A program made the translations under genes and the position numbers. 57,879 bases of DNA, taken from Oscillospiraceae bacterium (GTDB taxonomy: Bacteria > Bacillota > Clostridia > Oscillospirales > CAG-272). The stretch is taken from assembly GCA_015065215.1 (NCBI GenBank), contig SVQT01000007.1:1-57879 (forward strand). The letters are read 5' to 3'. Of the stretch, positions 14,472 to 31,475 are shown piece after piece (positions within the stretch are counted from its first letter, which is position 1; each line of letters starts with the position of its first letter). Under the pieces are notes generated by a model. The model was given only the letters and a program-made list of their open reading frames with translations, did no database searches and was not told the DNA's origin.

Positions 14472-15299
14472 ATGGAACAGACCAAAAAGTGTGCGCTTGC
14501 CGCAAAGGCCGCACAGATCCGCCTTGACATCCTGGAGGAGGTCCACGCTGCAAAGTCCGGACATCCCGGTGGTTCTCTCTCGATTGCGGATGTGATGACC
14601 TATCTCTATTTTGAAGAAATGAACATTGACCCCGCTAACCCCAAGTGGGCAGACCGTGACCGCTTGGTGCTTTCTAAGGGTCACACCGCTCCCGCTCTGT
14701 ACGCAACCCTTGCGGAGAGAGGCTACTTCGATGTGGCCGAGCTCCCCAAACTGCGCAAAATCGACTCTTTCTTGCAGGGTCACCCCGACATGAAGCATAC
14801 CCCCGGCGTGGATATGACCACCGGTTCCCTCGGTCTTGGTATTTCCGCCGCTTGCGGTATGGCTCTTGCCGCTAAAATCGACGGCAAGGATTACCGTACC
14901 TACACCATTCTGGGCGATGGCGAGAGTGAGGAGGGCCAGGTTTGGGAGGCTTGCATGTTTGCCGCTCACTACAAGCTGGATAACCTCTGTGTTATCATTG
15001 ACTGGAACGGTTTACAGATCGACGGCGCTATTACCGATGTTATGAACCCCACTCCCCATGACAAAAAGCTGGAGGCCTTTGGCTTCAACGTTGTTGTGGC
15101 TGACGCACACGATTTTGACGAGCTGGAAGCGGCCTTCAACAGCGCGAAAGCGTGCAAGGGCAAGCCCACCGCGATTATTGTAAAGTCGGTGAAGGGTAAG
15201 GGCGTTTCCTTTATGGAAAATCAGGCAAGCTGGCACGGTGCCGCTCCCAATGACGAGCAGTACGCTGTTGCTGTTGCTGACATCAAAGCGACTATGTAA
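14472..15299 (+). CDS. tktN: Transketolase, N-terminal (thiamine diphosphate-binding) subunit
   Basis: The 275-residue protein corresponds to the first third of full-length transketolase. HSG-type motif GHPGGSLS lies near residue 32 and the thiamine diphosphate/metal motif GDGESEEGQVWEA near residue 145, followed by the Mg ligand stretch IDWNGLQIDG. It forms the active enzyme with the C-terminal subunit encoded 14 bases downstream. It shuttles two-carbon ketol units in the non-oxidative pentose phosphate pathway. AAGGAGG is 8 bases before the ATG. Split transketolases are common in Clostridia and archaea, so this is not a broken gene. A perfect consensus promoter suggests strong constitutive expression. 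Confidence 0.95.
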   Translation: MEQTKKCALAAKAAQIRLDILEEVHAAKSGHPGGSLSIADVMTYLYFEEMNIDPANPKWADRDRLVLSKGHTAPALYATLAERGYFDVAELPKLRKIDSFLQGHPDMKHTPGVDMTTGSLGLGISAACGMALAAKIDGKDYRTYTILGDGESEEGQVWEACMFAAHYKLDNLCVIIDWNGLQIDGAITDVMNPTPHDKKLEAFGFNVVVADAHDFDELEAAFNSAKACKGKPTAIIVKSVKGKGVSFMENQASWHGAAPNDEQYAVAVADIKATM

Positions 15300-15313
15300 G
15301 GGGGAACTGAAAA

Positions 15314-16255
15314 ATGGCAGATAAGATTGCAACCAGAGAAGCCTATGGCAACGCCCTTGCGGAGCTTGGCGAAAAGTATGATTTTGTAGTACTGGATGCT
15401 GACCTTTCGGCAGCTACCAAAACCGGTGTATTCAAGAAGAAGTACCCCGAAAGATTTTTTAACTGCGGCATTGCCGAGGGCAATATGATGAGTGTTGCGG
15501 CAGGTCTCGCCGCCGCGGGCAAGGTTCCCTTTGCCTCCACCTTTGCGATGTTCGCCGCGGGCCGTGCTTTTGAGCAGATCCGTAACTCGATCGGTTACCC
15601 TCACCTGAATGTAAAAATTGGCGCTACCCATGCGGGTATTACCGTTGGTGAGGATGGCGCTACCCACCAGTGCAATGAGGATCTTGCCTTGATGCGTACC
15701 ATCCCCGGCATGACCATTGTCAACCCCGCTGATGCCGTTGAGGCAAAGGCCGCCGTTGAGGCCGCTATCAACTTTAACGGCCCCATGTACCTGCGTTTTG
15801 GCCGTTTTGCTGTGCCGGTGATCAACGATAAGCCCGACTACAAGTTTGAGATCGGTAAGGGCGTGACCTTGGCCGATGGCACCGACGTGACTATCGTGGC
15901 TACCGGTCTGATGGTTTCTATGGCGATCGAGGCCGCTGAATCCCTGAAGGCTGAGGGTATCTCCGCCCGCGTGATTAACATTCACACCATCAAGCCCTTG
16001 GACGAGGAGCTGATTCTGAAGGCCGCCAAGGAGACCGGTGCGATCGTGACTGCTGAGGAGCATAGCGTGATCGGTGGCTTAGGCGCGGCTGTTGCCGAGT
16101 GCGTTTGTGGCAATTGCCCTGTTCCCGTTGTCCGTGTTGGTGTCAACGATACCTACGGCCGTTCCGGCACTGTTCCCGCACTGCTTGAAATGTACGGTCT
16201 GACCCCCGCGAATATCGTGGAGAAGGCTAAGGCTGCTATTGCACTGAAAAAATAA
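15314..16255 (+). CDS. tktC: Transketolase, C-terminal (pyrimidine-binding and C-terminal) subunit
   Basis: The 313-residue partner holds the pyrimidine-binding domain. It has the cofactor-activating glutamate in GIAEGNMMSVAAGLA, the FA(A)GRAFEQIRN region and the substrate loop HAGITVGEDGATHQ. The C-terminal domain (TIVATGLMVSMA, EEHSVIGGLGAAVAE) is of unclear catalytic role but is universal in transketolases. It is translated from GGGGGAA 8 bases before its ATG and is cotranscribed with the N-terminal subunit. The glutamate and the GEDG loop argue for transketolase rather than deoxyxylulose-5-phosphate synthase or a 2-oxo acid dehydrogenase beta subunit. Confidence 0.95.
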   Translation: MADKIATREAYGNALAELGEKYDFVVLDADLSAATKTGVFKKKYPERFFNCGIAEGNMMSVAAGLAAAGKVPFASTFAMFAAGRAFEQIRNSIGYPHLNVKIGATHAGITVGEDGATHQCNEDLALMRTIPGMTIVNPADAVEAKAAVEAAINFNGPMYLRFGRFAVPVINDKPDYKFEIGKGVTLADGTDVTIVATGLMVSMAIEAAESLKAEGISARVINIHTIKPLDEELILKAAKETGAIVTAEEHSVIGGLGAAVAECVCGNCPVPVVRVGVNDTYGRSGTVPALLEMYGLTPANIVEKAKAAIALKK

Positions 16256-17690: not shown

Positions 17691-18890
17691 TTAGAATATC
17701 ATCAAAATGATTTTGGCGGCAAGAACCACCATAACCAATGCGATGGGATAAGTCGCGGCGTAAGCGGAGGAGACCTCGTCTGTCTTGGCGGTGCTGATCA
17801 GCGCGCCGAGAGCGGGAGTGGAGGTCATACCGCCGGTGATCGAGCCGAGGTTGTTGAAGATGGAAAGTTTGAATACAAACTTGCCAAGCACAAAACCAAC
17901 GATCATAGGAACCAGGGTGAACAGCGCGCCGTAGAGGAAATAGGAAACCTTTACATTGCTCACAAAGTTCACGCCGCCGGGAACGCCGGCACCGATCAAA
18001 AAGAGAACCAGACCCAGCTCGCGGAAGAAGTTAAGGGTCTCCTTTTTGATGCGGCAATCAATCGGGCCGATGTGACCAAAGTGGCCAATGAGCAGACCGG
18101 CGACCAGGGTGCCGCCCGAGGTGCCCAGCGAGAAGTTGATGCCGGGGATTTTGATGGCACCGATGACGCAGCCGAGCGCGATAGCGAGGAAGAAGGGGAA
18201 GAAGCCAAAGGGATCCAGCGCTTTGCGGGGTTTTTCGTCAGATTTGACCTCAACAGTGGCGGCGGCGACAAAGTTTTCACGCTCCTTGTCAATATCCACG
18301 CGCAGGATCTTGGGCATCAGCTGTACGAACAGTACTACGCCCAAAACGCCGAAGAGGTAAGCGATGCCATAGCCTGCGGTTACGGCACTCTCATTTGTGG
18401 CAACCTCTTTAGCGGCCGAGAGGCCGGGGGTAGAGGTCAGGCCGCCGGTCAGCAGACCCACAGCCATGTCGGGGGAGAGATTGGGATCCAGCACAGTGCA
18501 AAGCACAGCCGCACCGGCACCGATGGCAATCACAATCACGCCCATGAGTACATAGGACAGCGATTTACGGTTGAGGGTGCGGAAGAACTTGGGACCCGCG
18601 ATCAAACCGACCGATGTCACGAACAGGGCCGTGCCGATGTTAGAGATAATCTTGAAGTTTGATTCGATGGAGCTGTTGAAGAGAAAGATCTCTTTTTCGC
18701 CGATCGAAAAGCTGGGAACAAAATTTGCCAATATACCAAAGGCCAGTGCCATCAAAAGTACACCGGCGGTGCCAAGAGAGATACCTTTGATTTCAATGGC
18801 GCCGACCAGATAGCCGAGGGCCGCGATCAAAAATGCGATAAAGATGGTGGAAAGCAACGAGGATGTTACACCACCCAAATATTCTACCAT
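17691..18890 (-). CDS. AspT/YidE/YbjL-family transporter, candidate succinate exporter
   Basis: The 399-residue protein has two homologous membrane halves, each with the family motif GG(L/M)TSTPGL or GGMTSTPAL in a re-entrant loop. About ten hydrophobic segments flank a 40-residue hydrophilic centre (RVDIDKERENF to KPRKALDPF). The large RCK/TrkA-C regulatory domains of AspT and YidE are absent. Relatives exchange aspartate for alanine, or export succinate as SucE of Corynebacterium does. Lying directly downstream of fumarate reductase in the same orientation, it may export succinate or exchange dicarboxylates. That substrate is inferred from context. GGAGGC lies 10 bases before its ATG. No clear own promoter is seen. 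Confidence 0.85.
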   Translation of the reverse strand: MVEYLGGVTSSLLSTIFIAFLIAALGYLVGAIEIKGISLGTAGVLLMALAFGILANFVPSFSIGEKEIFLFNSSIESNFKIISNIGTALFVTSVGLIAGPKFFRTLNRKSLSYVLMGVIVIAIGAGAAVLCTVLDPNLSPDMAVGLLTGGLTSTPGLSAAKEVATNESAVTAGYGIAYLFGVLGVVLFVQLMPKILRVDIDKERENFVAAATVEVKSDEKPRKALDPFGFFPFFLAIALGCVIGAIKIPGINFSLGTSGGTLVAGLLIGHFGHIGPIDCRIKKETLNFFRELGLVLFLIGAGVPGGVNFVSNVKVSYFLYGALFTLVPMIVGFVLGKFVFKLSIFNNLGSITGGMTSTPALGALISTAKTDEVSSAYAATYPIALVMVVLAAKIILMIF

Positions 18891-19090: not shown

Positions 19091-20713
19091 TCAGATGGGC
19101 TTTGCGTTTCTTGCGTAGTTGGGCAGCAGGACGGGGGATTGCTTGTCGGTCTTGATACCGGCTGCCTCCTGCTCGGCGGCAAAGTCCTTGATATGCTTCA
19201 AGGTGGGCTTGCCAAGGGTGGTTTCCTTGGCTGCCTTCGCGGCGTTGATGCCGGCATTTCTGCCGAATACGATGATGTCCAGAAGCGAGTTGCCCATCAG
19301 GCGGTTCTCGCCGTGGATGCCGCCCACTGCCTCACCGGCAACGAACAGGTTCTCCACGTCGGACATGCCGTTGGCGCCGATCTTGATACCGCCGTTCTGG
19401 TAGTGCAGGGTGGGGTAGATCAGAATGGGCTGCTTGCGCATATCAATACCGTACTTGAGGTACATGCGCATCATAGCGGGGATGCGCTTCTCAATGGTGC
19501 CCTCGCCATTGATCTTTTCGATCATGGGGGAGTCCAGCCAGATGCCAAAGCCGCCTTCGGGGGTGGAAACACCCTTGCCACGCTCTTTGCATTCACGGAT
19601 GATAGAGGCTGCGGAAACGTCACGGGTCTCCAGCGGGTTCATGAATGCTTCGCCCTCAGCATTGATCAGCTGCGCGCCGATAGAACGAACCTTTTCGGTG
19701 ACCAGGGCGCCGAAGATCTGCGAGGGATACGCCACGCCAGTGGGGTGGTACTGTAGGGTGTAGGCGTAAAGCAGCGGTGCGCCCGCACGGTAGGCAAGCA
19801 CCAAGCCGTCAGCGGTAGCGCCATAGTGGTTAGAGGTGGGGAAGCCCTGGTAGTGCATACGGCCTGCGCCACCGGTGGCGATAATCACCGTCTTGGCGCG
19901 GGCAACCATCAGCTCCTTGGTTTCCATGTTCATGAGTACAGCGCCGGTAGCGCGGCCCTGCTCATCCTTGATCAGCTCAATGGCGGCGGTAAAGTCTACA
20001 ACGGGAATGTTGCGGTTCTGTACCTCGTCGCGGAGCACACGCATGATCTCGGCGCCGGAATAGTCCTTGCAGGCGTGCATGCGCTTGCGGGAGGTGCCGC
20101 CACCGTGGGTGGTGACCATGGTGCCGTCAGCTTCCTTGTCGAACATGACGCCAAGATTGTTGAGCCACTGAATGCACTCAGGACCGTCGTGAACCAGCTT
20201 ATAAACAAGCTCAGGCACATTCTTGAAGTGGCCGCCGCCCATCACGTCCAGATAGTGCTGCGCGGGGCTGTCGTTGGGCTTATCGGCGGCCTGAATGCCG
20301 CCCTCTGCCATCATGGTGTTGGCATCGCCGTGGCGGAGCTTGGTCACGATCATAACCTTTGCGCCGTTTTCGTGGGCCATAATGGCGGCCGCGGAGCCGG
20401 CACCGCCGCCGCCGATGATCAGCACGTCGGTTTCGTAATCAGCTTTTTTCAGATCAATGTCGGATGCCTTGATGCGGCTGTTTGCCTGTAGGATCTCGGC
20501 CAGCTCCAACGGTACCTTTTCGCCCTTGTTGGGGCCGATCTTCAATTCCGCAAACTGAGAAGCGATGTGATCGGGGTGGAAGGCGGCAAGAACGTTTTCC
20601 TTCTCCTCGGCGGTCATACGGCGGGGGTTCTCGCCGGCCATAACCTTTGCAAGGCGCGCCTCACGGGTGGCCTCTACCTTTTTAATGGATTCGAGCATTT
20701 CGGGTGTATACAT
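19091..20713 (-). CDS. frdA: Fumarate reductase flavoprotein subunit, soluble type
   Basis: The 540-residue FAD protein belongs to the succinate dehydrogenase/fumarate reductase/aspartate oxidase family. It shows GGGGAGSAAA (101-110, FAD), HGGGTSRK (203-210), the substrate loop QYHPTG (321-326), catalytic ETRD (362-365) with R364, LHYQNGG (436-442) and NRLMGNSL (470-477). In membrane enzymes FAD is joined to a His before TxxAEGG; here that place is Asn (N132, NTMMAEGG), so FAD should be non-covalent. Residues 1-95 are an extra, charged and largely helical N-terminal extension. It lies 12 bases after frdB, and no anchor subunits follow. It reduces fumarate to succinate in the cytosol, probably fed by the Flx-Hdr complex encoded upstream. 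Confidence 0.92.
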   Translation of the reverse strand: MYTPEMLESIKKVEATREARLAKVMAGENPRRMTAEEKENVLAAFHPDHIASQFAELKIGPNKGEKVPLELAEILQANSRIKASDIDLKKADYETDVLIIGGGGAGSAAAIMAHENGAKVMIVTKLRHGDANTMMAEGGIQAADKPNDSPAQHYLDVMGGGHFKNVPELVYKLVHDGPECIQWLNNLGVMFDKEADGTMVTTHGGGTSRKRMHACKDYSGAEIMRVLRDEVQNRNIPVVDFTAAIELIKDEQGRATGAVLMNMETKELMVARAKTVIIATGGAGRMHYQGFPTSNHYGATADGLVLAYRAGAPLLYAYTLQYHPTGVAYPSQIFGALVTEKVRSIGAQLINAEGEAFMNPLETRDVSAASIIRECKERGKGVSTPEGGFGIWLDSPMIEKINGEGTIEKRIPAMMRMYLKYGIDMRKQPILIYPTLHYQNGGIKIGANGMSDVENLFVAGEAVGGIHGENRLMGNSLLDIIVFGRNAGINAAKAAKETTLGKPTLKHIKDFAAEQEAAGIKTDKQSPVLLPNYARNAKPI

Positions 20714-20725
20714 CTTTGCGCCTCC

Positions 20726-21400
20726 TTATTTCTCGAAATCGCGGTTGTTGTACATATCCTTGAGCTCAGCCACAGACTTGCTCATAATGTCATTCAAAGC
20801 CGCTTCGCAGTCACCGCGCAGAATCTCGTCTACACGGTTTTTCAGATGTTCGGTCTCGGGGGCCAGGTACTTGCCGGTGAGACGACGGGCGAGCAGACCC
20901 ACCTGGGGATGGGTAATGCCGGCAGGGCAACGGGAGGAGCAAACGCCGCACATCACGCAGTCGAAGGATTCCTCAGCGCATTTTTCGTACTCGGCGCGCT
21001 GTGCGTAAGCAATGTACTGCATCACGTTCAGGCCCTGTGTGCAGGCCTTGGTGCAGGCGTTGCAGCCAACGCAAGCATAAATTTCGGGATAGAGCTGCAT
21101 CATAATCTGCTCGGTGGGCTTTACATTGTCGATCTCGTAGGGCTTCTTCACCAAGGGGAAGAAGGGCAGGGTAGCGATGTACATATTGTCCTGCACCTGG
21201 GTCTGGCAAGCGAGGCAGGTCTTGAGCTCGGTGTCGCCCTTGATGCGGTAGATGGTGGCGCAAGCGCCGCAGAAGCCGCAACGGCAACCAACGCCGCGGA
21301 CCAGCTGATAGCCGGCGTACTCCATAGCACCCATAATGGTGAGGCTGGAGGGAACCTCATACTTTTTACCGTAGAGGTAAATATTGATCATATTACTCAT
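20726..21400 (-). CDS. frdB: Fumarate reductase iron-sulfur subunit
   Basis: The 224-residue protein has an N-terminal plant-ferredoxin-like [2Fe-2S] domain (C39, C44, C47 and C62, in GCRCGFCGAC and CLAC). Two complete CxxCxxCxxxC sets follow: C110/C113/C116/C120 and C148/C151/C154/C158. Classical FrdB/SdhB has one [4Fe-4S] and one [3Fe-4S] cluster at the quinone side; here both look like [4Fe-4S] ferredoxin sites, as expected for an enzyme that does not use quinone. The start at 21400 follows GAGGATTT, and an in-frame extension to 21523 runs into flxA and is rejected. It passes electrons to FrdA. Its closeness to flxA (16 bases) suggests it accepts them from the Flx-Hdr complex. Confidence 0.88.
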   Translation of the reverse strand: MSNMINIYLYGKKYEVPSSLTIMGAMEYAGYQLVRGVGCRCGFCGACATIYRIKGDTELKTCLACQTQVQDNMYIATLPFFPLVKKPYEIDNVKPTEQIMMQLYPEIYACVGCNACTKACTQGLNVMQYIAYAQRAEYEKCAEESFDCVMCGVCSSRCPAGITHPQVGLLARRLTGKYLAPETEHLKNRVDEILRGDCEAALNDIMSKSVAELKDMYNNRDFEK

Positions 21401-21416
21401 GGCTAAATCCTCTCTA

Positions 21417-22244
21417 TTAGTATTCGTCGGGCAGTTCGTCCAACTGGTCAAAGCGGAATACAGGCCCGTCTTTGCAGACATACTTGTTACCGATGTTGCA
21501 ACGGCCGCATTTGCCGATGCCACATTTCATGCGTAGCTCCATGGTGGTAAAGATCTGGGTCTTGTCAAAGCCAAGCTCGATAAGCCCCGGTAGGGTGAAC
21601 TTGATCATGATGGGGGGGCCGCAGAGCAACACGCAGGTGTTCTCGGGCTTGAAGCCCAGCTCTTTTACATAGTTGGGAACAAAACCAACGTGCCCGCTCC
21701 AGTTTTCCTGTTCACGGTCGATGGTCAAATGCACGGTAAAGTCCTCGGCGGTCATCCACTCTTCTACGATCTCTTTGTAGTAGACCAGATCCTCTTTGGA
21801 ACGGGAGCCGTAAACAATGTCAACGTGCCCATAATCGGCGCGGTTGTCACGCACATAGTTGATCACAGAGCGCAACGGCGCCAAACCGATACCGCCGGCA
21901 ATAAAGAGCAGATTTTTGCCCTTTAATTCGGTGTCAACCGGGAAGGGGCGGCCATAAGGACCGCGCACGGTGATCATCTGGCCCTCTTCCATCGAGTGCA
22001 GCCAATCGGTCAGGCATCCGCACTTTTTGACGCTGAATTCCATGAACGCCTTGTTGGTGGGAGAGGAGGTGATCGAGATCATCGCCTCGCTGATGCCGGG
22101 AACAGAGAGCATAGCGCACTGACCGGGCTCGTGCTCAAAGAGCTTGCCACCGCTCGGCGCCTCTACACGGAAGGTCTTTACATCGGGGGTCTGACCGGTG
22201 ATTTCGGTGACGACGCCCGCGTAAGGGATCAAAGTTTCTTCCAT
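21417..22244 (-). CDS. flxA: FAD/NAD(P)-binding subunit of the Flx-Hdr complex
   Basis: The 275-residue ferredoxin-NADP-reductase-like protein has an FAD-binding barrel (about residues 8-100, with the RGPYGRPFP stretch), a nucleotide domain (FIAGGIGLAPLRSVI, then VYGSRSKEDL and LLCGPP), and a C-terminal [2Fe-2S] loop, CGIGKCGRCNIG plus a later C. It resembles the gamma subunits of sulfhydrogenases and sulfite reductases and FlxA of the Desulfovibrio FlxABCD-HdrABC complex. It should oxidise NADH and pass electrons on towards HdrA. Its ATG overlaps the stop of flxB by one base (TAATG), so translation is coupled. Choice of NADH over NADPH cannot be read from sequence. Confidence 0.87.
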   Translation of the reverse strand: MEETLIPYAGVVTEITGQTPDVKTFRVEAPSGGKLFEHEPGQCAMLSVPGISEAMISITSSPTNKAFMEFSVKKCGCLTDWLHSMEEGQMITVRGPYGRPFPVDTELKGKNLLFIAGGIGLAPLRSVINYVRDNRADYGHVDIVYGSRSKEDLVYYKEIVEEWMTAEDFTVHLTIDREQENWSGHVGFVPNYVKELGFKPENTCVLLCGPPIMIKFTLPGLIELGFDKTQIFTTMELRMKCGIGKCGRCNIGNKYVCKDGPVFRFDQLDELPDEY

Positions 22245-23272
22245 TATTTATCTCCTCCTTTGGCCAGCGTTTTCATGACCTTGACGATATTCATCGAAAT
22301 GGGGCAACGGGCAAGGCATCTGCCGCAACCAACACACCCAAAGATGCCATCATTGTTATCGGGGAAATAGACCAGCTTGTGCATGAATCTCTGACGGAAG
22401 CGCTCTAACTGGCTCACACGCGGATTGCCGTGTGCCATCTTGGTGAAGTCTGAGTACATGCAGGAGTCCCAACAGCGGAAGCGCTGAATGCCGTGGCCGG
22501 TGTCAAAGTCACGGATGTCATAACACTGGCAGGTGGGGCAAACGAAGGTACAGGTGCCGCAACCAAGGCAAGCTTCAGAGAGCGCGGCCCATTCGGGGCG
22601 ATCGAACAGCTCCTTTGTCAGGCCCTGACCAACACCCTCGGTAGACAAATTGGCAAGCGGGAGCTTTGCGAGGATCTCGCGCGTTTTTTCCTGCTCGGCG
22701 GTGACCGCCTGGTCATCTGTTTCCTCAAACAGGTTAGCGCAGGTTGCCATCAGCGCCTCGCCTTTGGCGGTGTTGGCACGGAAAGCGTAGCCATCCTCCA
22801 AAGCCCAAACGGTGATGTCACCCTTGGGGTCGGCTGCGTCAATGCCGAAGGTGCCGCAAAAGCAGGTCTCGGCGGGTCTTGAGCAGGCCAGGGTGATAAC
22901 GGTGCCGTGCTCGCGGCGGTTTTTGTAGTAGCTGTCCACCGGATCGGTGAGATAGACACGGTCCAGAATATCAAAGCTGGCGGCATCGCAGGCGCGTACA
23001 CCGAAAATCACGAAATCCTCGCACTCCTCGCGGGTGTCGATCACGTCGATTTTCTTGCCGGCCATTTTGAATTCCATGAGGTTTTCGGTCTGGGGGAAGA
23101 AGAAATCCTTTGCAGAGCGCAGCGTGTTTAGCTGATCGGAAAGCGTAACCCCCTCGCTCCATTTTTTGTACTCTGCCTTGCCCGTCTCATTATTTACGGG
23201 GCAGTAAAGTGCCTGATTCTTGGCAACGGCGGCAAAGAAATCATACAACTGCGCAAGAGAAAGCTTTTTCAT
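22244..23272 (-). CDS. flxB: 4Fe-4S dicluster subunit FlxB
   Basis: The 342-residue iron-sulfur protein is similar in build to the AsrA subunit of anaerobic sulfite reductase. A long N-terminal domain (residues 1-220, with EECEDFVIFGVRACD) is followed by two cysteine sets, CLGCGTCTFVCPTC and CVGCGRCLARCP, with extra cysteines between them. It probably links FlxA with FlxC and FlxD by Fe-S clusters. The chosen start follows AAAGGAG by 9 bases. A start 21 bases further upstream (23293) overlaps the flxC stop but has no ribosome binding site. Position and order match the Flx cluster, which separates it from a true sulfite reductase subunit, for which no asrC is present. Confidence 0.82.
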   Translation of the reverse strand: MKKLSLAQLYDFFAAVAKNQALYCPVNNETGKAEYKKWSEGVTLSDQLNTLRSAKDFFFPQTENLMEFKMAGKKIDVIDTREECEDFVIFGVRACDAASFDILDRVYLTDPVDSYYKNRREHGTVITLACSRPAETCFCGTFGIDAADPKGDITVWALEDGYAFRANTAKGEALMATCANLFEETDDQAVTAEQEKTREILAKLPLANLSTEGVGQGLTKELFDRPEWAALSEACLGCGTCTFVCPTCQCYDIRDFDTGHGIQRFRCWDSCMYSDFTKMAHGNPRVSQLERFRQRFMHKLVYFPDNNDGIFGCVGCGRCLARCPISMNIVKVMKTLAKGGDK

Positions 23273-23289
23273 TACCTTTTTCTCCTTTC

Positions 23290-24237
23290 TCATGCTTCGC
23301 GGTCGCCCAAGGTGTAGGTGCCAAGGGGCGGCTTCTTTTCGGGATCCTCGCCTGCCTGGTAATCACCGTAAAACTCGTTCATATCCTTGATGAACTTGCG
23401 GTTCAGCAGATGGAGCGGGATGTGCTGAGGGCAAACGCTGGAGCATTCGCCGCAGTCGGTACATCTGCCCGCTACATGGAAGGCGCGGATGATATGGAAC
23501 ATGTTCTCCTCAAAGGAGTTGACGGCCGCCTTTTGGGCAATGCCGGAACCCGGGTTGTCAAACACGCATTGCTCACAGGTGCAAGCGGGGCAGACGTTGC
23601 GGCAAGCGTTGCAGCGAATGCAACGGGAAAGCTCGCCACGCCAGAAGGCAAAACGCTCTTCGGGTGTCATAGCCTCTAACTTTTCTACCATATCAAAGCG
23701 GTTGCAATCCTCCACAACCTCGCCGTCCTCGCCAATCAGCTCGTCATAGACCACGTGCTTCTTGCTCTTGCAAGCAAGGCAACGCTCGGCCATAGCGTCA
23801 GCGGCTTTGACGGTTTTGTTGCCGTAAACTGTTTCAACGGTGTACTCGCCGTTCTTGATTTGGATGCCGGTGATACCCTCCAGGCCCATGGCCTTGAGCT
23901 TATCTACATCAGCCTTGCCATAGCATTCAATGCCGATCACGTAAACATTCTCGCGGATGACACGGTGCTCAGCGATCAGCTGATTGAAGCTGTAAGTGTC
24001 GCAGGGCTTGAGGAATACCAGAATTTTGCCGCCCTTGCGGCTTTCTTTAACCAAGTACTTAGAAAGATTGGCACCGCAGAAATCATTATACACAAAATTG
24101 TTTTTCAACTCCTGTGCCGAAGTAAAGACGGCAGGGGTCATATCATAGGGGAATTCACCTGCGCTCCAGCCCAGCACACGGTCAACGGTGCCGTCTGCCA
24201 GTAGCTCCAGAGCGCGTTTTTCCATCAATTCTTGCAT
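23290..24237 (-). CDS. flxC: 4Fe-4S dicluster subunit FlxC
   Basis: The 315-residue protein is a second AsrA-like or F420-hydrogenase-beta-like iron-sulfur subunit. It has CLAC near residue 130, CIRCNACRNVCPACTCEQC around 200 and CTDCGECSSVCPQHIP around 260. The upstream domain (VFLKPCDTYSFNQLI, VIGIECYGKAD) is the typical cofactor or adaptor domain of the family. It starts inside flxD with a 13-base overlap and ends by the flxB ribosome binding site, showing a tightly coupled operon. It should be part of the electron path between the NADH-oxidising FlxA and HdrA. It has no membrane segments, so the complex is soluble. Confidence 0.82.
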   Translation of the reverse strand: MQELMEKRALELLADGTVDRVLGWSAGEFPYDMTPAVFTSAQELKNNFVYNDFCGANLSKYLVKESRKGGKILVFLKPCDTYSFNQLIAEHRVIRENVYVIGIECYGKADVDKLKAMGLEGITGIQIKNGEYTVETVYGNKTVKAADAMAERCLACKSKKHVVYDELIGEDGEVVEDCNRFDMVEKLEAMTPEERFAFWRGELSRCIRCNACRNVCPACTCEQCVFDNPGSGIAQKAAVNSFEENMFHIIRAFHVAGRCTDCGECSSVCPQHIPLHLLNRKFIKDMNEFYGDYQAGEDPEKKPPLGTYTLGDREA

Positions 24238-24659
24238 CTCAGATCCTCCAATCTCTTGTTCTCACCGAGAGCCGCGACGGTTTCGCAGAACTCGTTCATG
24301 GTTTTGGAGAACTTAGCGCCCTCCGCGGCGGAGATCCACTCCACGCGGGTACGCTCCCGCTCGATGCCCAGATAATCCAGCATCGAGAAGAGCAGTGCCA
24401 TACGGCGGCGGGTGAAGTAGTTACCGCTGGTGTAATGGCAGTCACCGGGGTGACAGCCGGCAATGATCACGCCGTCGGCGCCCCGCTGGAAGGCACGCAG
24501 AATGAACATAGGATTCACGCGGCAGGAGCAGGGTACACGGATGATTTTGACGTTTTCCGGGTAGGAAAGACGGGCAGAGCCTGCGCCGTCGGCACCCGCG
24601 TAGGAGCACCAGTTGCAGCAGAAGGCAACGATTTTCGGCTTATATTCATTTACTTGCAT
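24225..24659 (-). CDS. flxD: MvhD-like subunit FlxD
   Basis: The 144-residue protein belongs to the MvhD family, the small [2Fe-2S] protein that carries electrons into HdrA in methanogens and Desulfovibrio. Cysteines visible are C14, C15 and C18 in FCCNWCSYAGAD, VPCSCRVNP, then AGCHPGDCHY. Here it would connect the FlxABC part to HdrA. The hydrogenase subunits MvhA and MvhG, which would make the donor H2, are absent from the locus, pointing to NADH as donor. It overlaps hdrA by 10 bases and flxC by 13. The length is typical for stand-alone MvhD. Confidence 0.9.
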   Translation of the reverse strand: MQVNEYKPKIVAFCCNWCSYAGADGAGSARLSYPENVKIIRVPCSCRVNPMFILRAFQRGADGVIIAGCHPGDCHYTSGNYFTRRRMALLFSMLDYLGIERERTRVEWISAAEGAKFSKTMNEFCETVAALGENKRLEDLRCKN

Positions 24660-26644
24660 ATTGCGTCAACCTCCGCCATGATTTGTTTGTTGGTAAAGCC
24701 CTTGAGGTCCATTGCGCCGGAGGGGCAAGCCACCGTACATGCGCCGCAGCCCTGGCAGACAGCCGGATTGACAGATGCCACACGGCGAATGAGCGTGGTG
24801 CGGTTCGGGCCGCGGAATTCCTTGTCGGCATAGGTAATAGCGCCGTAGGGGCAGACCTTCTCGCAGGAGGAGCAGCCATTGCAGAGCATCTCATCAGAGG
24901 ATGCCACGCAGGGGTTGCAGGTCAGCTTATCTTTGGCGAGAACGCCGATCACCTTGGCGGCACAAGCAGAGGCCTGAGAAACCGTTTCGGGAATATCCTT
25001 AGGACCCTGGCAGATACCGGAGAGGAAGATGCCCGCGGTGGGGGATTCGACAGGGCGGAGCTTGGGATGCGCCTCGGTAAAGAAGTCGTTGGTATCCATG
25101 CTGGCGGTCAGCATCGTGCCGATCGAGCGTGCGGTTTTATCCGGCTCAATCGCGGTGGCGAGCACCACCAGATCGGCATCAATATGCAGCTGCTCACCTG
25201 CCAGCAGGTCGCTGGCCTGTACACGGAGCTGCTTGCCATTTTGAGTGACCTTACCGACCATGCCCTTGATGTAATGAACGCCGTACTGCTCGACCGCGCG
25301 GCGGTAGAATTCATCAAAATTCTTGCCGGGGGTACGAACATCAATGTAGAAGACGTAGACTTCGGTATCCGGATACTTTTCACGGATCAGCATAGCGTGC
25401 TTGGCGGTGTACATGCAGCAGATCTTAGAGCAATAGGGCTTGCCGCGCTCATCGGTCTCGGTGCAACGGGAGCCAACGCACTGCACGAATACGATCTTAT
25501 GGGGGTGCTCCTTGTCAGAGGGACGGAGCAGTGTGCCGTTGGTGGGGCCGGCGGCGTTCATCAGCCGCTCCAGCTCCAGGGAGGTGACAACATCGGGGCA
25601 GGTAGCGTAGCCGTATTCGCCGTAAACGGTGGCGTCGATGGGGTTGAAACCGGTTGCCGCCACAATGGCGCCATACTCGCGCTCGATGATCTCATCCTTT
25701 TGGGTGTAGTCGATCGCGCCGGTGCCACAGATTTTAGAGCAAACGCCGCACTTGCCGGTTTTCAGCATGGTGCAGTAGGTGGCGTCGATGGTGGCAACCT
25801 TCGGTACGGCCTGCGCGAAGGGGATGTAAATGGCACGGCGGGTATCCATACCCATATTGAACTCGTTGGGGACCTTCTTCTGGGGGCATTTCTCGGTGCA
25901 AAGACCGCAACCGGTGCACTTCGTTTCGTCCACGTATCTTGCCTTGCGGCGGATCTGTGCCTTGAAATTGCCCACATAGCCCTTTACGGCCTCCAGCTCG
26001 CTGTAAGCGTAAATGGTGATCTTCTCGTTCTGTGCCGCGTCTACCATTTTAGGGGTCAGGATACAAGCGGCGCAGTCCAGGGTGGGGAAGGTTTTATCAA
26101 GCTGTGCCATCTTGCCGCCGATGGTGGGGGACTTTTCTACGATGTCCACCTCAAAGCCTGCCTCGGCAATATCCAGAGCGGTCTGAATGCCGGCGATGCC
26201 GCCGCCAATGACCAACGCGCGCTTGGTAACGGGACTTTCCCCTGCTGTGAGCGGCGCGTTCAGATGAACCTTGGCGATCGCGGCGCGCCCTAAGATGATC
26301 GCCTTTTCAGTCGCCTCCTTCATATCCTTGTGGATCCAGGAGACATGCTCACGCAGGTTGGCGATCTCAACCATATAGGGATTGATGCCTTCCAGCGAGG
26401 CGGCCTTGCGGAAGGTGGCCTCGTGCATGCGGGGAGAGCAGGAGCCCACCACAATGCCGGTGAGCTTATGCTCGCGGATGGCCTCGCGCATCAGCTGTTG
26501 GCCGGATTCCGAGCACATGTACTGGTAATCGGTGGAAAACACCACGCCTTGCTCGTGAGAGAGAGCCTCGGCAACTGCCTTTACGTCTACGGTGCCGGCA
26601 ATGTTGGTACCGCAGTGGCAGATAAATACGCCAATTCTTTGCAT
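24650..26644 (-). CDS. hdrA: Heterodisulfide reductase subunit A homologue (electron-bifurcating flavoprotein)
   Basis: The 664-residue FAD and Fe-S protein has an N-terminal cysteine domain (ICHCGTNIAG; SCSPRMHEATF, 68-78), the FAD motif VIGGGIAG (145-152), a [4Fe-4S] set CTGCGLCTEKC (243-253), middle cysteine groups (CGVCSKICG; CSKICCMYTAKHA), and two C-terminal ferredoxin sites, CNGCSSCEKVCPYG and CQGCGACTVACPSG. In methanogens HdrA bifurcates electron pairs, one going to ferredoxin and one to HdrBC. The two C-terminal clusters are the usual ferredoxin exit. The length fits the short HdrA type without fused MvhD. It starts 15 bases after the hdrC stop. This is the probable bifurcation site of the complex encoded here. 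Confidence 0.93.
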   Translation of the reverse strand: MQRIGVFICHCGTNIAGTVDVKAVAEALSHEQGVVFSTDYQYMCSESGQQLMREAIREHKLTGIVVGSCSPRMHEATFRKAASLEGINPYMVEIANLREHVSWIHKDMKEATEKAIILGRAAIAKVHLNAPLTAGESPVTKRALVIGGGIAGIQTALDIAEAGFEVDIVEKSPTIGGKMAQLDKTFPTLDCAACILTPKMVDAAQNEKITIYAYSELEAVKGYVGNFKAQIRRKARYVDETKCTGCGLCTEKCPQKKVPNEFNMGMDTRRAIYIPFAQAVPKVATIDATYCTMLKTGKCGVCSKICGTGAIDYTQKDEIIEREYGAIVAATGFNPIDATVYGEYGYATCPDVVTSLELERLMNAAGPTNGTLLRPSDKEHPHKIVFVQCVGSRCTETDERGKPYCSKICCMYTAKHAMLIREKYPDTEVYVFYIDVRTPGKNFDEFYRRAVEQYGVHYIKGMVGKVTQNGKQLRVQASDLLAGEQLHIDADLVVLATAIEPDKTARSIGTMLTASMDTNDFFTEAHPKLRPVESPTAGIFLSGICQGPKDIPETVSQASACAAKVIGVLAKDKLTCNPCVASSDEMLCNGCSSCEKVCPYGAITYADKEFRGPNRTTLIRRVASVNPAVCQGCGACTVACPSGAMDLKGFTNKQIMAEVDAICK

Positions 26645-26659
26645 TTCGCGCTTTCCTCC

Positions 26660-27049
26660 TTACTTGCTGTATTTGCGCAATGCGGTGACAAGAAGCTGCT
26701 GGGGCATATCCTCGTCAAGCATTGCAGGGATGCTGTCTGTTTTTAAGTGGTTCTGACCCTGCTCGCGGATGACAGAAAGGCGGACAGCCTCTACGAGCTT
26801 GGCCGGCTCAACGCCGCGGGGGCAACGGTCCACGCACGCAAAGCAGGAAAGGCACTTGTAGATCGACTTGCTTGCCGCCAGTTTTTCGATCTCGCCCTTT
26901 TCTACCATATAGACGAACTGATGGGGATGATACTCCATCTCGTCAAAGGCGGGGCAGGTTGCGGTGCATTTGCCGCATCGCATACATTTGCGCACGTCAA
27001 CACCGGAAGAGCGCAGAACCTGTTCGGTTTTGTTATTACTATGACTCAT
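26660..27049 (-). CDS. hdrC: Heterodisulfide reductase subunit C homologue
   Basis: The 129-residue small ferredoxin-like protein has two complete CxxCxxCxxxC sets (C22, C25, C28, C32 and C66, C69, C72, C76) separated by a helical linker. This is the pattern of HdrC, which relays electrons from HdrA to HdrB. The start at 27049 is chosen because AAAGGAGGCA precedes it; the longer in-frame ORF would extend into hdrB. It sits between hdrB (13-base gap) and hdrA (15-base gap). HdrB and HdrC are not fused here, unlike HdrDE or TfrB proteins. Confidence 0.92.
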   Translation of the reverse strand: MSHSNNKTEQVLRSSGVDVRKCMRCGKCTATCPAFDEMEYHPHQFVYMVEKGEIEKLAASKSIYKCLSCFACVDRCPRGVEPAKLVEAVRLSVIREQGQNHLKTDSIPAMLDEDMPQQLLVTALRKYSK

Positions 27050-27062
27050 ACCGTGCCTCCTT

Positions 27063-27842
27063 TCACTTGACACCAAGCGCTTCGGCAAGCAGCTCGGTGA
27101 AGTAAACGACAGGCAACTCGGTGCCGCCGTTTTTGGCAAGATTGTAAAGGCAAAGCGGGCAGGCGGTGATCACGGTGTCGGCACCGTTTTTCTTGGCATC
27201 CTGCATCACAATGTTACTGCGCTTTTGGCTCTGCTCCTTATCCTCGGCAGCGACATAGCCGCCGCAGCACTCGTTGCGCATGCCCCAGATTACCGGCTCT
27301 GCGCCAAGCGCGCGGATAAGGCCCTCAAGAATAGTGGGGTTTTCGGGGTCGTCAAACTGCATCACCTTGCGGGGGCGGAGCAACAGACAACCATAGTAGG
27401 CGGCGATCCTGCGGCCGGTCAGCGGATTTTTGACCGCGGCCTTGATCTTGTCAAAGCCGACACGGTCACGGAGCACCTCCAAATAGTGCAGAACAGAGGT
27501 TTCGCCGTTGTAGGGGGTCTCCAGACCCAGATAGTTGTTCACACGCAGGGCGATGTCGGCGTCTGCTGCCATATCGTTATTCACCTGCTTGATCACATTA
27601 TGACAAGCGGAGCAAAGGGTTACGAGCTCCTGCCCCTCGTCACGGGTAGCGACCAGCGCACGAACGGCGGATAGCTTGGTAGCGATTTCGTCTTTTGCCA
27701 TGGGGTAAACAGCGCCGCAGCACTGCCAGTCGGGCAGTTCTTCCAGCGTGAAGCCGAGGGCCTTTGCCGCAAGGCGACCGTAACGGTCCAGATCCTTCCC
27801 CTTGGTTTTAAGAGTACAGCCGGGATAATAACTGAACTTCAT
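27063..27842 (-). CDS. hdrB: Heterodisulfide reductase subunit B homologue (double CCG domain)
   Basis: The 259-residue protein holds two cysteine-rich CCG domains. The first has YYPGC, QCCGAVYP and CSAC; the second has YYGC, NECCGGY and CPLC. In methanogens these sites carry two non-cubane [4Fe-4S] clusters that cleave the CoM-S-S-CoB disulfide. What HdrB acts on here is unknown. A small disulfide carrier, or a role as electron relay to the fumarate reductase encoded downstream, are the main possibilities. In methanogen TfrB an HdrB-like domain is fused to the FrdB-like part, a hint that HdrB and FrdB can work together. It is the first gene of the hdr-flx-frd run, after a structured leader. 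Confidence 0.9.
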   Translation of the reverse strand: MKFSYYPGCTLKTKGKDLDRYGRLAAKALGFTLEELPDWQCCGAVYPMAKDEIATKLSAVRALVATRDEGQELVTLCSACHNVIKQVNNDMAADADIALRVNNYLGLETPYNGETSVLHYLEVLRDRVGFDKIKAAVKNPLTGRRIAAYYGCLLLRPRKVMQFDDPENPTILEGLIRALGAEPVIWGMRNECCGGYVAAEDKEQSQKRSNIVMQDAKKNGADTVITACPLCLYNLAKNGGTELPVVYFTELLAEALGVK

Positions 27843-28091: not shown

Positions 28092-29468
<1,377 letters not shown>

Positions 29469-29821: not shown

Positions 29822-30547
29822 ATGCTGGAACTACAACACATCAGCTTTTCGGTGCCTGCTGAAAACGGCGGAAAGACGGAGATCCTCAAGGACGTCAGCT
29901 TTGCCGTTTCTGAACGATTTGTCGCCATCACAGGCCCAAACGGTAGCGGAAAATCCACTGTTGCCAAAATCATTGCGGGTATAGAAAGGCCCACCTCCGG
30001 GCGCATTTTACTGGACGGCGAGGACATCACCGAGCTTTCTGTAACCGAGCGCGCCAAAAAGGGCATCAGCTTTGCTTTTCAGCAGCCGGTGCGCTTTAAG
30101 GGTATCACTGTCAAGGATCTGATTTCGCTAGCGGCAGGCACCAACATTTCAGTGGCAAGCGCCTGTGCCTATCTTTCTGAGGTCGGCCTTTGCGCAAAGG
30201 AGTATATCAACCGCGAGGTCAACGCCTCGCTTTCCGGCGGCGAGCTCAAGCGCATTGAGATCGCTATGATCAACGCGCGCTCGACCAAGCTTTCTGTTTT
30301 TGATGAGCCGGAGGCAGGCATCGACCTGTGGAGCTTCAACAACCTCATCAAGGTGTTCGAGAGCATGCACGAGCGCACCAAGGGCAATATTCTGATCATT
30401 TCGCACCAGGAGCGCATTCTGGATATTGCGGACAAGATCGTGGTGATCGCTGACGGTACCGTGGCCCAGATCGGTTCAAAAGCGGAGATTTTGCCCACCC
30501 TGCTGGCACCTGCCGGTTGCCGCTATACTGCGAAGGGAGAGAATTGA
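29822..30547 (+). CDS. sufC: SufC-type ABC ATPase of the Fe-S assembly system
   Basis: The 241-residue ABC ATPase has Walker A GPNGSGKST (38-46), the Q-loop FAFQQP, the signature SLSGGELKR (136-144), Walker B SVFDEPEAGID and the switch histidine in IISHQER. The SGGE signature and the short alpha-helical part match SufC rather than importer ATPases. It powers Fe-S cluster assembly on SufB. Only one SufB/D-like partner follows, one base after the stop, and there is no sufS, sufU or sufD. This is the layout of the minimal SUF (SMS) systems found in anaerobes. AAAGGAG precedes the ATG by 7 bases. Confidence 0.9.
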   Translation: MLELQHISFSVPAENGGKTEILKDVSFAVSERFVAITGPNGSGKSTVAKIIAGIERPTSGRILLDGEDITELSVTERAKKGISFAFQQPVRFKGITVKDLISLAAGTNISVASACAYLSEVGLCAKEYINREVNASLSGGELKRIEIAMINARSTKLSVFDEPEAGIDLWSFNNLIKVFESMHERTKGNILIISHQERILDIADKIVVIADGTVAQIGSKAEILPTLLAPAGCRYTAKGEN

Positions 30548-30548
30548 T

Positions 30549-31475
30549 ATGGCACAGCTTGACAGCATTCAGCAAAATTTGCTGGCGCAGGTAGCGGACA
30601 TCCATGAGATCCCCGAGGGCGCCTTTTCGCTTCGTGTCAACGGCGAGATGTTTGGCAGCCGTTCCAGCGAGAATATTGAGATTGTGAAAAAAACAGACAA
30701 GCCCGGCATTGACATTTATATCAAAGCAGGCACAAAAAAAGAGAGCCTGCACATTCCTGTTCTGCTGGCCAAAACCGGCATTACCGAGCTGGTGTATAAC
30801 GATTTTCACATTGGCGCCGACTGTGACATAACCATTGTGGCGGGCTGTGGCATCCACAACGGCGGTGCGGAAAAGAGTGAGCACAGCGGCATTCACAGCT
30901 TTTATGTGGGGGAAAATGCCCGGGTACGGTATATAGAAAAGCACTATGGTGAGGGGGATGGCAATGGACGCAACGTGATGAATCCCACCACTGAGGTGTA
31001 TATGCAAAAGGGGAGCTATATGGAGATGGAAACCGCCCAGATCAAGGGGGTAGACTCCACCGACCGTACCACTAAGGCCAAGCTTGCCGAGGGGGCGCAT
31101 TTGATCGTGCATGAAAAGATCATGACCCACGGCGAGCAGTACGCCAAAACCTACTTTGAGGTGGATCTTGACGGCGAGGACTGTGGCACCCATGTGGTAT
31201 CCCGCTCGGTGGCAAAGGATCACTCTAAGCAGCTATTCGTTTCGCATGTCAACGGCAACAACCGTAGCAGCGGTCACACCGAATGCGATGCCATCATTAT
31301 GGATAGTGCCACTGTCAGTGCGGTACCCGAGATCGAGGCCAATCATCCCGAGGCGTCGCTCATTCATGAGGCGGCCATCGGCAAGATCGCGGGGGAGCAG
31401 CTGATCAAGCTCATGACCCTCGGCCTTACTGAGAAGGAAGCTGAAGAGCAGATCATCGGCGGCTTTCTTAAGTGA
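30549..31475 (+). CDS. sufB: SufB/SufD-like Fe-S scaffold subunit (minimal SUF system)
   Basis: The 308-residue protein carries the SufBD core beta-helix domain (for example FYVGENARVRYIEKHYGEG, GTHVVSRSVAKDHSKQLFV and SLIHEAAIGKIAGEQLIKLM). It is much shorter than the classical SufB of about 470 residues and lacks its N-terminal region. It should dimerise and bind SufC, making a cluster scaffold in the cytosol. The GAEGG-like cysteine that SufB uses is not obvious; the candidates are C95 and C101. The next Fe-S genes (NifU-like and GGGtGRT) lie at the far end of the window. The many Fe-S subunits in the hdr-flx-frd run nearby create a heavy demand for such a system. Confidence 0.88.
   Translation: MAQLDSIQQNLLAQVADIHEIPEGAFSLRVNGEMFGSRSSENIEIVKKTDKPGIDIYIKAGTKKESLHIPVLLAKTGITELVYNDFHIGADCDITIVAGCGIHNGGAEKSEHSGIHSFYVGENARVRYIEKHYGEGDGNGRNVMNPTTEVYMQKGSYMEMETAQIKGVDSTDRTTKAKLAEGAHLIVHEKIMTHGEQYAKTYFEVDLDGEDCGTHVVSRSVAKDHSKQLFVSHVNGNNRSSGHTECDAIIMDSATVSAVPEIEANHPEASLIHEAAIGKIAGEQLIKLMTLGLTEKEAEEQIIGGFLK

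Follow-up and report, generated by a model that had tools for sequence, protein, structure and literature searches.

Described systems closest to the operon

FlxABCD-HdrABC, reportedly described from Desulfovibrio vulgaris by Ramos and colleagues in 2015, has the same seven subunit types as part of a gene run, hdrBCA-flxDCBA-frdBA, that we analyze here in contig SVQT01000007.1 of an Oscillospiraceae bacterium (assembly GCA_015065215.1; the whole stretch of 57,879 nucleotides is referred to as the window). The TfrAB enzyme of methanogens is a soluble fumarate reductase with HdrB-like chemistry, and SdhABE, an 8-methylmenaquinol:fumarate reductase, is linked to membrane and quinone and has neither HdrA nor Flx. 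The operon in the window probably encodes a soluble, quinone-free bifurcating NADH:fumarate/ferredoxin oxidoreductase, as judged from its sequence and from its conservation in other genomes.

This kind of operon is already known as a hypothesis, and the window operon is a member of it. The same gene set has been described in Pseudoclostridium thermosuccinogenes, where it is called the "succinate operon" (Koendjbiharie et al. 2020, PMC7282089). In the excerpts of that paper used here, the locus tags run from a fumarase through seven for Flx-Hdr and two for fumarate reductase to a potential succinate transporter, and the same ferredoxin coupling is hypothesized; the likeness is one of gene content as published. 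According to the same excerpts, the operon was approximately 4-fold up under CO2 limitation, added H2 nearly abolished succinate, from which the authors inferred ferredoxin coupling, and a 2019 preprint is cited for the idea of a bifurcating fumarate reductase. A related cluster from tubeworm symbionts and Thioflavicoccus has flxABCD-hdrABC interspersed with tfrAB and korABCD, and the portion of the report consulted (PMC6315080, 2019) suggests one complex with direct electron delivery. However, that cluster belongs to an autotrophic reverse TCA cycle, is of the TfrAB type and comes with a 2-oxoglutarate:ferredoxin oxidoreductase. The claim of the first-pass annotation that no enzyme of this make-up had been described is thus rejected on the literature (PMC7282089, PMC6315080, both in excerpt). 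A survey of FrdA in rumen genomes (PMC6776011) makes no Hdr-Flx link in the part consulted. The spread over gut Clostridia, the co-occurrence of HdrB/HdrC with FrdB and the residue signatures of HdrB and FrdA were not found in the literature searched or the excerpts used here, though the 2019 preprint may hold some of them. What the present analysis would add to the prior art is the wide occurrence of the genes and a traceable likely electron route.

The locus differs from each of the other described systems. Desulfovibrio Flx-Hdr has DsrC as its partner (PMC10504309, in excerpt), and most of the sampled HdrB proteins unconnected with Frd lack an aromatic pair found in the HdrB studied here (see below), Desulfovibrio itself being outside the sample. 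TfrB fuses FrdB and HdrB parts, whereas these are separate here, with HdrA and Flx added; the FrdB of the window (approximately 226 amino acids) matches only positions 18-166 of the 488 of the TfrB model. SdhABE resembles the locus in having an HdrB-like subunit beside FrdA and FrdB, and SdhE is the best NCBIfam model for HdrB, but the matches to SdhE, SdhA and SdhB reach 136 of 500, 216 of 1100 and 18 of 600 bits. Furthermore, no anchor subunit genes as in a quinol:fumarate reductase (FrdABCD) lie beside frdBA.

Gene content and order

The nine genes are all on the - strand, from 27842 down to 19091, and stand within a longer - strand series (29468 down to 17691) that also holds fumC and a permease gene of the AspT/YidE type. 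In the order of transcription, these are:

28092..29468, - strand: fumC, class II fumarase, which would supply fumarate (TIGR00979 fumC_II, 711 bits, above cut-off)
27063..27842, - strand: hdrB, whose two CCG stretches would bind a pair of noncubane [4Fe-4S] clusters; the proposed link to FrdB
26660..27049, - strand: hdrC, two-[4Fe-4S] subunit (Fer4 domains; HdrC/QmoC-like, below cut-offs)
24650..26644, - strand: hdrA, FAD and [4Fe-4S] subunit, the proposed bifurcation site (5odc_A, E 1e-215)
24225..24659, - strand: flxD, of the MvhD/FlpD type, proposed to transfer electrons from Flx to HdrA (PF02662 (FlpD), 184 bits)
23290..24237, - strand: flxC, Fe-S subunit (Fer4 domains)
22244..23293, - strand: flxB, sulfhydrogenase-beta/AsrA-like Fe-S subunit (ShyB 198 bits, AsrA 138 bits; PDB 9nez_B, E 2e-51)
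21417..22244, - strand: flxA, FAD- and NAD(P)H-binding subunit, the putative site of electron entry (NAD_binding_1, FAD_binding_6, DHODB_Fe-S_bind; PDB 9nez_C, E 3e-64)
20726..21400, - strand: frdB, with Cys for one [2Fe-2S] and two [4Fe-4S] clusters (twelve conserved Cys; weak match to E. coli FrdB, E 1e-4)
19091..20713, - strand: frdA, fumarate reductase flavoprotein with an N-terminal extension of approximately 90 residues (FAD_binding_2, 235 bits)
17691..18890, - strand: permease of the AspT/YidE type, a possible succinate exporter (Asp-Al_Ex, 227 bits)

With the starts chosen, hdrB and hdrC are 13 bases apart and hdrC and hdrA 15, the pairs hdrA/flxD, flxD/flxC, flxC/flxB and flxB/flxA overlap by 10, 13, 4 and 1 bases (the last as TAATG), and 16 and 12 bases separate flxA from frdB and frdB from frdA; a purine-rich, ribosome-site-like sequence precedes most starts. 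The frames and spacings thus bear out the tight run of nine genes on one strand, with gaps of at most 16 bases or overlaps (TAATG, 10, 13), that the first-pass annotation had noted, and neither a hydrogenase nor a membrane anchor gene was found in the run by inspection of frames and domain search, again as annotated. From the end of fumC to hdrB there are 249 bases, and from frdA to the permease start 200. Judged by conservation, the predicted transcription unit is larger than nine genes, with fumC and the permease belonging to it.

All seven subunits of a FlxABCD-HdrABC complex are present with their cofactor motifs, and with fumarase, frdBA and permease in the same run the window has the content of a "succinate operon". 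The best NCBIfam model for HdrA is HdrA2 (797 bits, with a cut-off of 1100). FlxA is sulfhydrogenase-gamma/AsrB-like, and the NCBIfam matches of FlxA and FlxB are all under cut-offs. Of the two Fe-S subunits annotated as AsrA-like, FlxB deserves the name (AsrA 138 bits), but FlxC does not, its best NCBIfam match being LutB with 29 bits. Among the matches listed for HdrB, HdrA, FlxB, FlxA, FrdB and FrdA, no solved structure of the complex was seen.

Conservation of the operon

A search of genome contigs with a FrdB alignment gave at least 564 confirmed relatives, of which the best 80, hence close relatives, were kept. In 57 of these loci the sequence extends 6.6 kb or more beyond frdB on the upstream side, and every one of the 57 holds the nine genes in the order of the window. 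fumC precedes hdrB in 52 of the 55 loci that reach far enough upstream, and the permease follows frdA in 52 of the 65 that reach far enough downstream. By title, these 80 relatives are mostly metagenome-assembled genomes of Clostridia from gut, cecum and rumen; the closest among the matches listed is from roe deer cecum (FrdB 97% identical), and another (L146) bears the title Ruminococcus flavefaciens. Treponema and Bacteroidaceae appear in a few titles, and we would guess that these may be binning errors.

The picture is similar in the 147 genomes of the window's own order, of which 27 carry FrdB (E <= 1e-40) and 28 carry HdrB (E <= 1e-30); every FrdB genome is also an HdrB genome (Fisher p 1e-28, relatedness ignored). 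The only genome with HdrB and without FrdB is G534, where no more than 125 bases lie between flxD and a contig end, so that the remainder of the run falls outside the contig. In 26 of the 27 genomes, HdrB and FrdB are encoded on the same contig, and in the remaining one, G480, they lie on two contigs that each carry a part of flxD. FlpD occurs in 32 genomes of the order, namely the 28 with HdrB and four others, and all 27 FrdB genomes also have FlxD. Within the window's own family, the operon set is present in 3 of 9 genomes, which suggests that it comes and goes as a unit. The conserved hdrBCA-flxDCBA-frdBA order that the first-pass annotation had wished to see searched for therefore exists, and the notion of a chance arrangement or an oddity of one genome is rejected, given the order in 57/57 named loci and the co-occurrence of FrdB and HdrB in 27/27 genomes of the order.

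HdrB and HdrC as the part that tracks FrdB

In a sample of 398 genomes from the phylum, true FrdB was found in 39, including the genome of the window (E <= 2.3e-67, with the next match at 1.3e-8). HdrB at E <= 1e-60, a cut-off chosen after the list had been seen, occurs in 28 of the 398 genomes, 27 of which have FrdB; the sole genome of the sample with such an HdrB and no true FrdB is G171, which is 89% complete. FlxD is present in 35 of the 39 FrdB genomes versus 121 of the 359 others.

The ratio of bit scores to the window protein was compared between Flx-Hdr loci of FrdB genomes and those of genomes without FrdB. HdrB separates the two groups with an area under the curve (AUC) of 0.99 (26 v 13) and HdrC with 0.91 (28 v 15), whereas HdrA (0.54, 23 v 19) and FlxD (0.44, 23 v 20) do not separate them; FlxC and FlxB gave 0.25 (20 v 15) and 0.69 (8 v 15). 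Thus, it appears to be the acceptor arm and not the core that tracks FrdB, a pattern predicted by a model in which an HdrC-HdrB arm faces FrdB. The control set consisted of 20 Flx-Hdr loci from high-scoring FlpD matches in genomes without strong FrdB, with no random draw and with HdrB in 13 of the 20; 20 second-copy loci of FrdB genomes were chosen by hand, and seven of them were put into the Frd group.

Seven FrdB genomes in which frdBA stands apart from hdr carry hdrBCA-flxDCBA elsewhere (cut before flxA in L175). The HdrB of these separate clusters is window-like in six of the seven (45 to 53% identity), and in an HdrB tree built with FastTree, rooted at the midpoint and holding every fifth sequence of L070-L149, all seven, including L174 (G091), group with the HdrB linked to frd.

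The ten Cys of the HdrB clusters are kept in 57 of 57 sequences, but positions 46 and 196, which follow the two CCG motifs at a distance of two or three residues, differ between the groups. HdrB of the frd type (38 sequences, some assigned by tree position) has F or Y at position 46 in all 38 and Y at position 196 in 37. The 19 other HdrB (13 from genomes without FrdB, five second copies of FrdB genomes, and one L062 copy out of two, placed here by the tree) have A or S at position 46 in 15 cases, Y in two and P in two, and S, A or G at position 196 without exception, and in HdrB of methanogens (8rvv, 7bkb) a Gly is aligned with both positions. We infer that the aromatic pair fills space near the clusters that a disulfide would use.

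In a wider reading, HdrB of this type would have given up disulfide reduction, its aromatic residues filling the substrate site and its clusters serving as a wire from HdrA/HdrC to FrdB; HdrBC-FrdBA would be a portable high-potential arm that is put on various HdrA/Flx donors, and the complete form would serve as the principal succinate-forming, energy-conserving enzyme in many Clostridia of gut and rumen, among them the lineage that goes by the name Ruminococcus flavefaciens. Taken jointly, these proposals are tentative, and we place them just short of an even chance.

FrdA, FrdB and HdrA residues

FrdA belongs by fold and catalytic His/Arg to the fumarate reductase/succinate dehydrogenase family. 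Its best NCBIfam model is TfrA (345 bits, below the cut-off of 718), it keeps H323, R343, H437 and R471, and the PF02910 C-terminal domain was not found in the window protein. N132, present in 113 of 113 sequences, aligns with the His in the SHTVSAQGG stretch of E. coli SdhA, the site of covalent FAD attachment. The N-terminal extension (residues 1-90, window positions 20444-20713) is conserved in this FrdA family, and none of the 50 matches listed begins before residue 72; it is a candidate for a docking part.

The twelve Cys of FrdB are present in 119 of 119 aligned sequences and fit two [4Fe-4S] clusters along with one [2Fe-2S] cluster, whereas a [3Fe-4S] cluster lies near the quinone in canonical FrdB. 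In HdrA, the Cys of the inserted and the C-terminal ferredoxin domains and the motif on the FAD side are kept in 99 to 102 of 102 aligned sequences, which include HdrA of loci without Frd.

Proposed mechanism and its alternatives

FumC would convert malate to fumarate. NADH would deliver a hydride to the FAD of FlxA, from where electrons would pass via FlxB/FlxC and FlxD to HdrA, to be bifurcated at its FAD. One electron would run downhill through HdrC, the two noncubane clusters of HdrB and the Fe-S chain of FrdB to the FAD of FrdA, where fumarate would be reduced to succinate, and the other would leave through the ferredoxin-type clusters of HdrA to ferredoxin. Over two such rounds, the net reaction would be 2 NADH + fumarate + Fd(ox) -> 2 NAD+ + succinate + Fd(red). 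That a soluble complex carries out this reaction is partly supported and is the best-supported reading of the operon. With standard potentials of -320 mV for NADH and +33 mV for fumarate and with ferredoxin between -500 and -400 mV, the computed energy is -33 to -53 kJ/mol, as compared to -68 kJ/mol for electron transfer from NADH to fumarate alone.

Reduced ferredoxin would then feed Rnf, generating an ion gradient, or a HydABC hydrogenase, and succinate may exit via the AspT-type permease. The genome, which is 84.6% complete, would offer both outlets for ferredoxin, having RnfC (500 bits, above cut-off) with adjoining RnfD- and RnfG-like frames at a contig end, and one [FeFe] hydrogenase with NuoF- and NuoE-like (HydB/HydC-like) partner frames. 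Its single FlpD match is the flxD of the operon, and its one other full FAD_binding_2 protein, flanked by nadA- and nadC-like genes, reads as L-aspartate oxidase (NadB). The names of Rnf, Hyd and Nad neighbours beyond the searches are a reading of frames. Neither menD above cut-off nor DsrC was found in this incomplete genome.

A different way to join the two halves of the operon would be a free dithiol: Flx-Hdr would reduce some disulfide and FrdAB would oxidize the dithiol in the manner of the methanogen thiol:fumarate reductase, so that the genes share an operon but the proteins form no complex. This would be in line with TfrA as the best NCBIfam match of FrdA, with the retention of all ten cluster Cys in HdrB and with the interaction of Desulfovibrio Flx-Hdr with DsrC (PMC10504309, in excerpt). 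However, FrdB, with its approximately 226 amino acids, is without the HdrB-like, thiol-oxidizing part of TfrB (positions 413-487 of the TfrB model match HdrB instead), DsrC was not found in the 84.6% complete genome, bulky residues adjoin both CCG motifs of the frd-type HdrB, and hdrCB-frdBA units occur without hdrA, such that we consider a free dithiol unlikely.

It is less likely still that the operon encodes a plain soluble NADH:fumarate reductase with no ferredoxin step and no bifurcation. While no separate ferredoxin gene was seen within the nine-gene run, HdrA retains its FAD region and the Cys of ferredoxin-type clusters, plain transfer would waste approximately 68 kJ/mol, and succinate of P. 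thermosuccinogenes is nearly abolished by H2, which the authors read as ferredoxin coupling (PMC7282089, in excerpt). Least probable of all, and in our view hardly to be expected, is reverse operation (confurcation), with succinate oxidized at the expense of NAD+ and reduced ferredoxin. Bifurcating enzymes are reversible in principle, and a distant FrdB locus (L037) has, by a reading of its frames, sucCD-like genes beside frdBA. Against this, enzymes with non-covalent FAD reduce fumarate but oxidize succinate poorly, and FrdA has N132 instead of His at the covalent FAD position in 113/113 sequences; moreover, fumC and a possible export permease suit succinate production.

Several observations weigh against the bifurcating fumarate reductase itself, or against the role of HdrB in it. 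At the cut-off, HdrB scores drop only from 206 to 197 bits, and 12 of the 39 FrdB genomes have no frd-type HdrB at E <= 1e-60 (G091, with 39% identity and E 1.8e-56, as well as G380, G071, G296, G067, G130, G254, G075, G039, G033, G080 and G382). Four of the 39 lack any FlxD, and in 17 of the 38 other FrdBA neighbourhoods the stretch retrieved contains no hdr gene, with some contigs ending there. FrdBA can thus have other partners. FlxA also separates FrdB from non-FrdB loci (AUC 0.98, with only 7 v 15), which is not explained by the acceptor-arm model. HdrB keeps its ten cluster Cys and so may still carry out disulfide chemistry, and two of the 19 other HdrB also have Y at position 46. The Fisher p-values ignore relatedness, and at 84.6% completeness genes that appear absent may be merely missing. 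Finally, the rise of the operon in P. thermosuccinogenes was not significant for all subunits, and Na2S had an effect opposite to that of H2 (PMC7282089, in excerpt).

If the operon does encode a bifurcating fumarate reductase, succinate formation in many gut and rumen Clostridia would conserve energy and be more than a simple electron sink. This would be achieved without a membrane fumarate reductase or a quinone, each fumarate yielding reduced ferredoxin for Rnf or H2, and the accounting of ATP and hydrogen for succinate producers would change. The Hdr core would have been refitted with a new acceptor by altered HdrB and HdrC, with HdrA and FlxD unchanged, and an unproved hypothesis of 2019-2020 would become testable in several lineages.

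Other arrangements of the same genes

The 38 other FrdBA neighbourhoods of the phylum sample show several arrangements. hdrB, hdrC, hdrA and flxD are all present in 14 of them, and two more are cut contigs with hdrA-flxD-frdBA. The orders vary: frdBA may precede hdrBCA, L043 has hdrCBA-flxDCBA-frdBA, and hdrCBA also occurs together with a second hdrA. This suggests that the same parts have been joined repeatedly. In the frames of L032-L149 and of the window, a search for natural fusions of FrdB with HdrB, or similar ones, gave none.

In five neighbourhoods (L041, L044, L046, L050 and L061), hdrC and hdrB lie beside frdB without hdrA, though L044 is a 3.8-kb contig ending in frdB. Their genomes (G252, G276, G300, G364 and G044) have 4 to 8 FlpD matches each. 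Such hdrC-hdrB-frdBA loci without hdrA or flx possibly encode a four-subunit fumarate reductase with another donor. The genomes G380, G071, G296 and G067 (L045, L049, L053 and L052) have FrdBA of this family and no FlpD match, which suggests that FrdBA has some other electron donor there. Two HdrA-like genes are found in L047, L051, L054, L056, L058, L059, L060 and L064, the second frame in L047 having 1058 amino acids, and in seven of these eight loci a weakly FlxC-like protein takes the place of flxCBA; they are candidates for another donor module on the same HdrBC-FrdBA arm.

Neighbouring genes

Two genes on the + strand adjoin the operon and point away from it (window 29822-31475). They encode a SufC-like ATPase and a SufB/D-like protein, both under curated cut-offs; the demand of the operon for Fe-S assembly would be high. 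At window 14472-16255, also on the + strand, a transketolase-like N-terminal half is followed by a frame that we read as the C-terminal half, i.e., a split transketolase.

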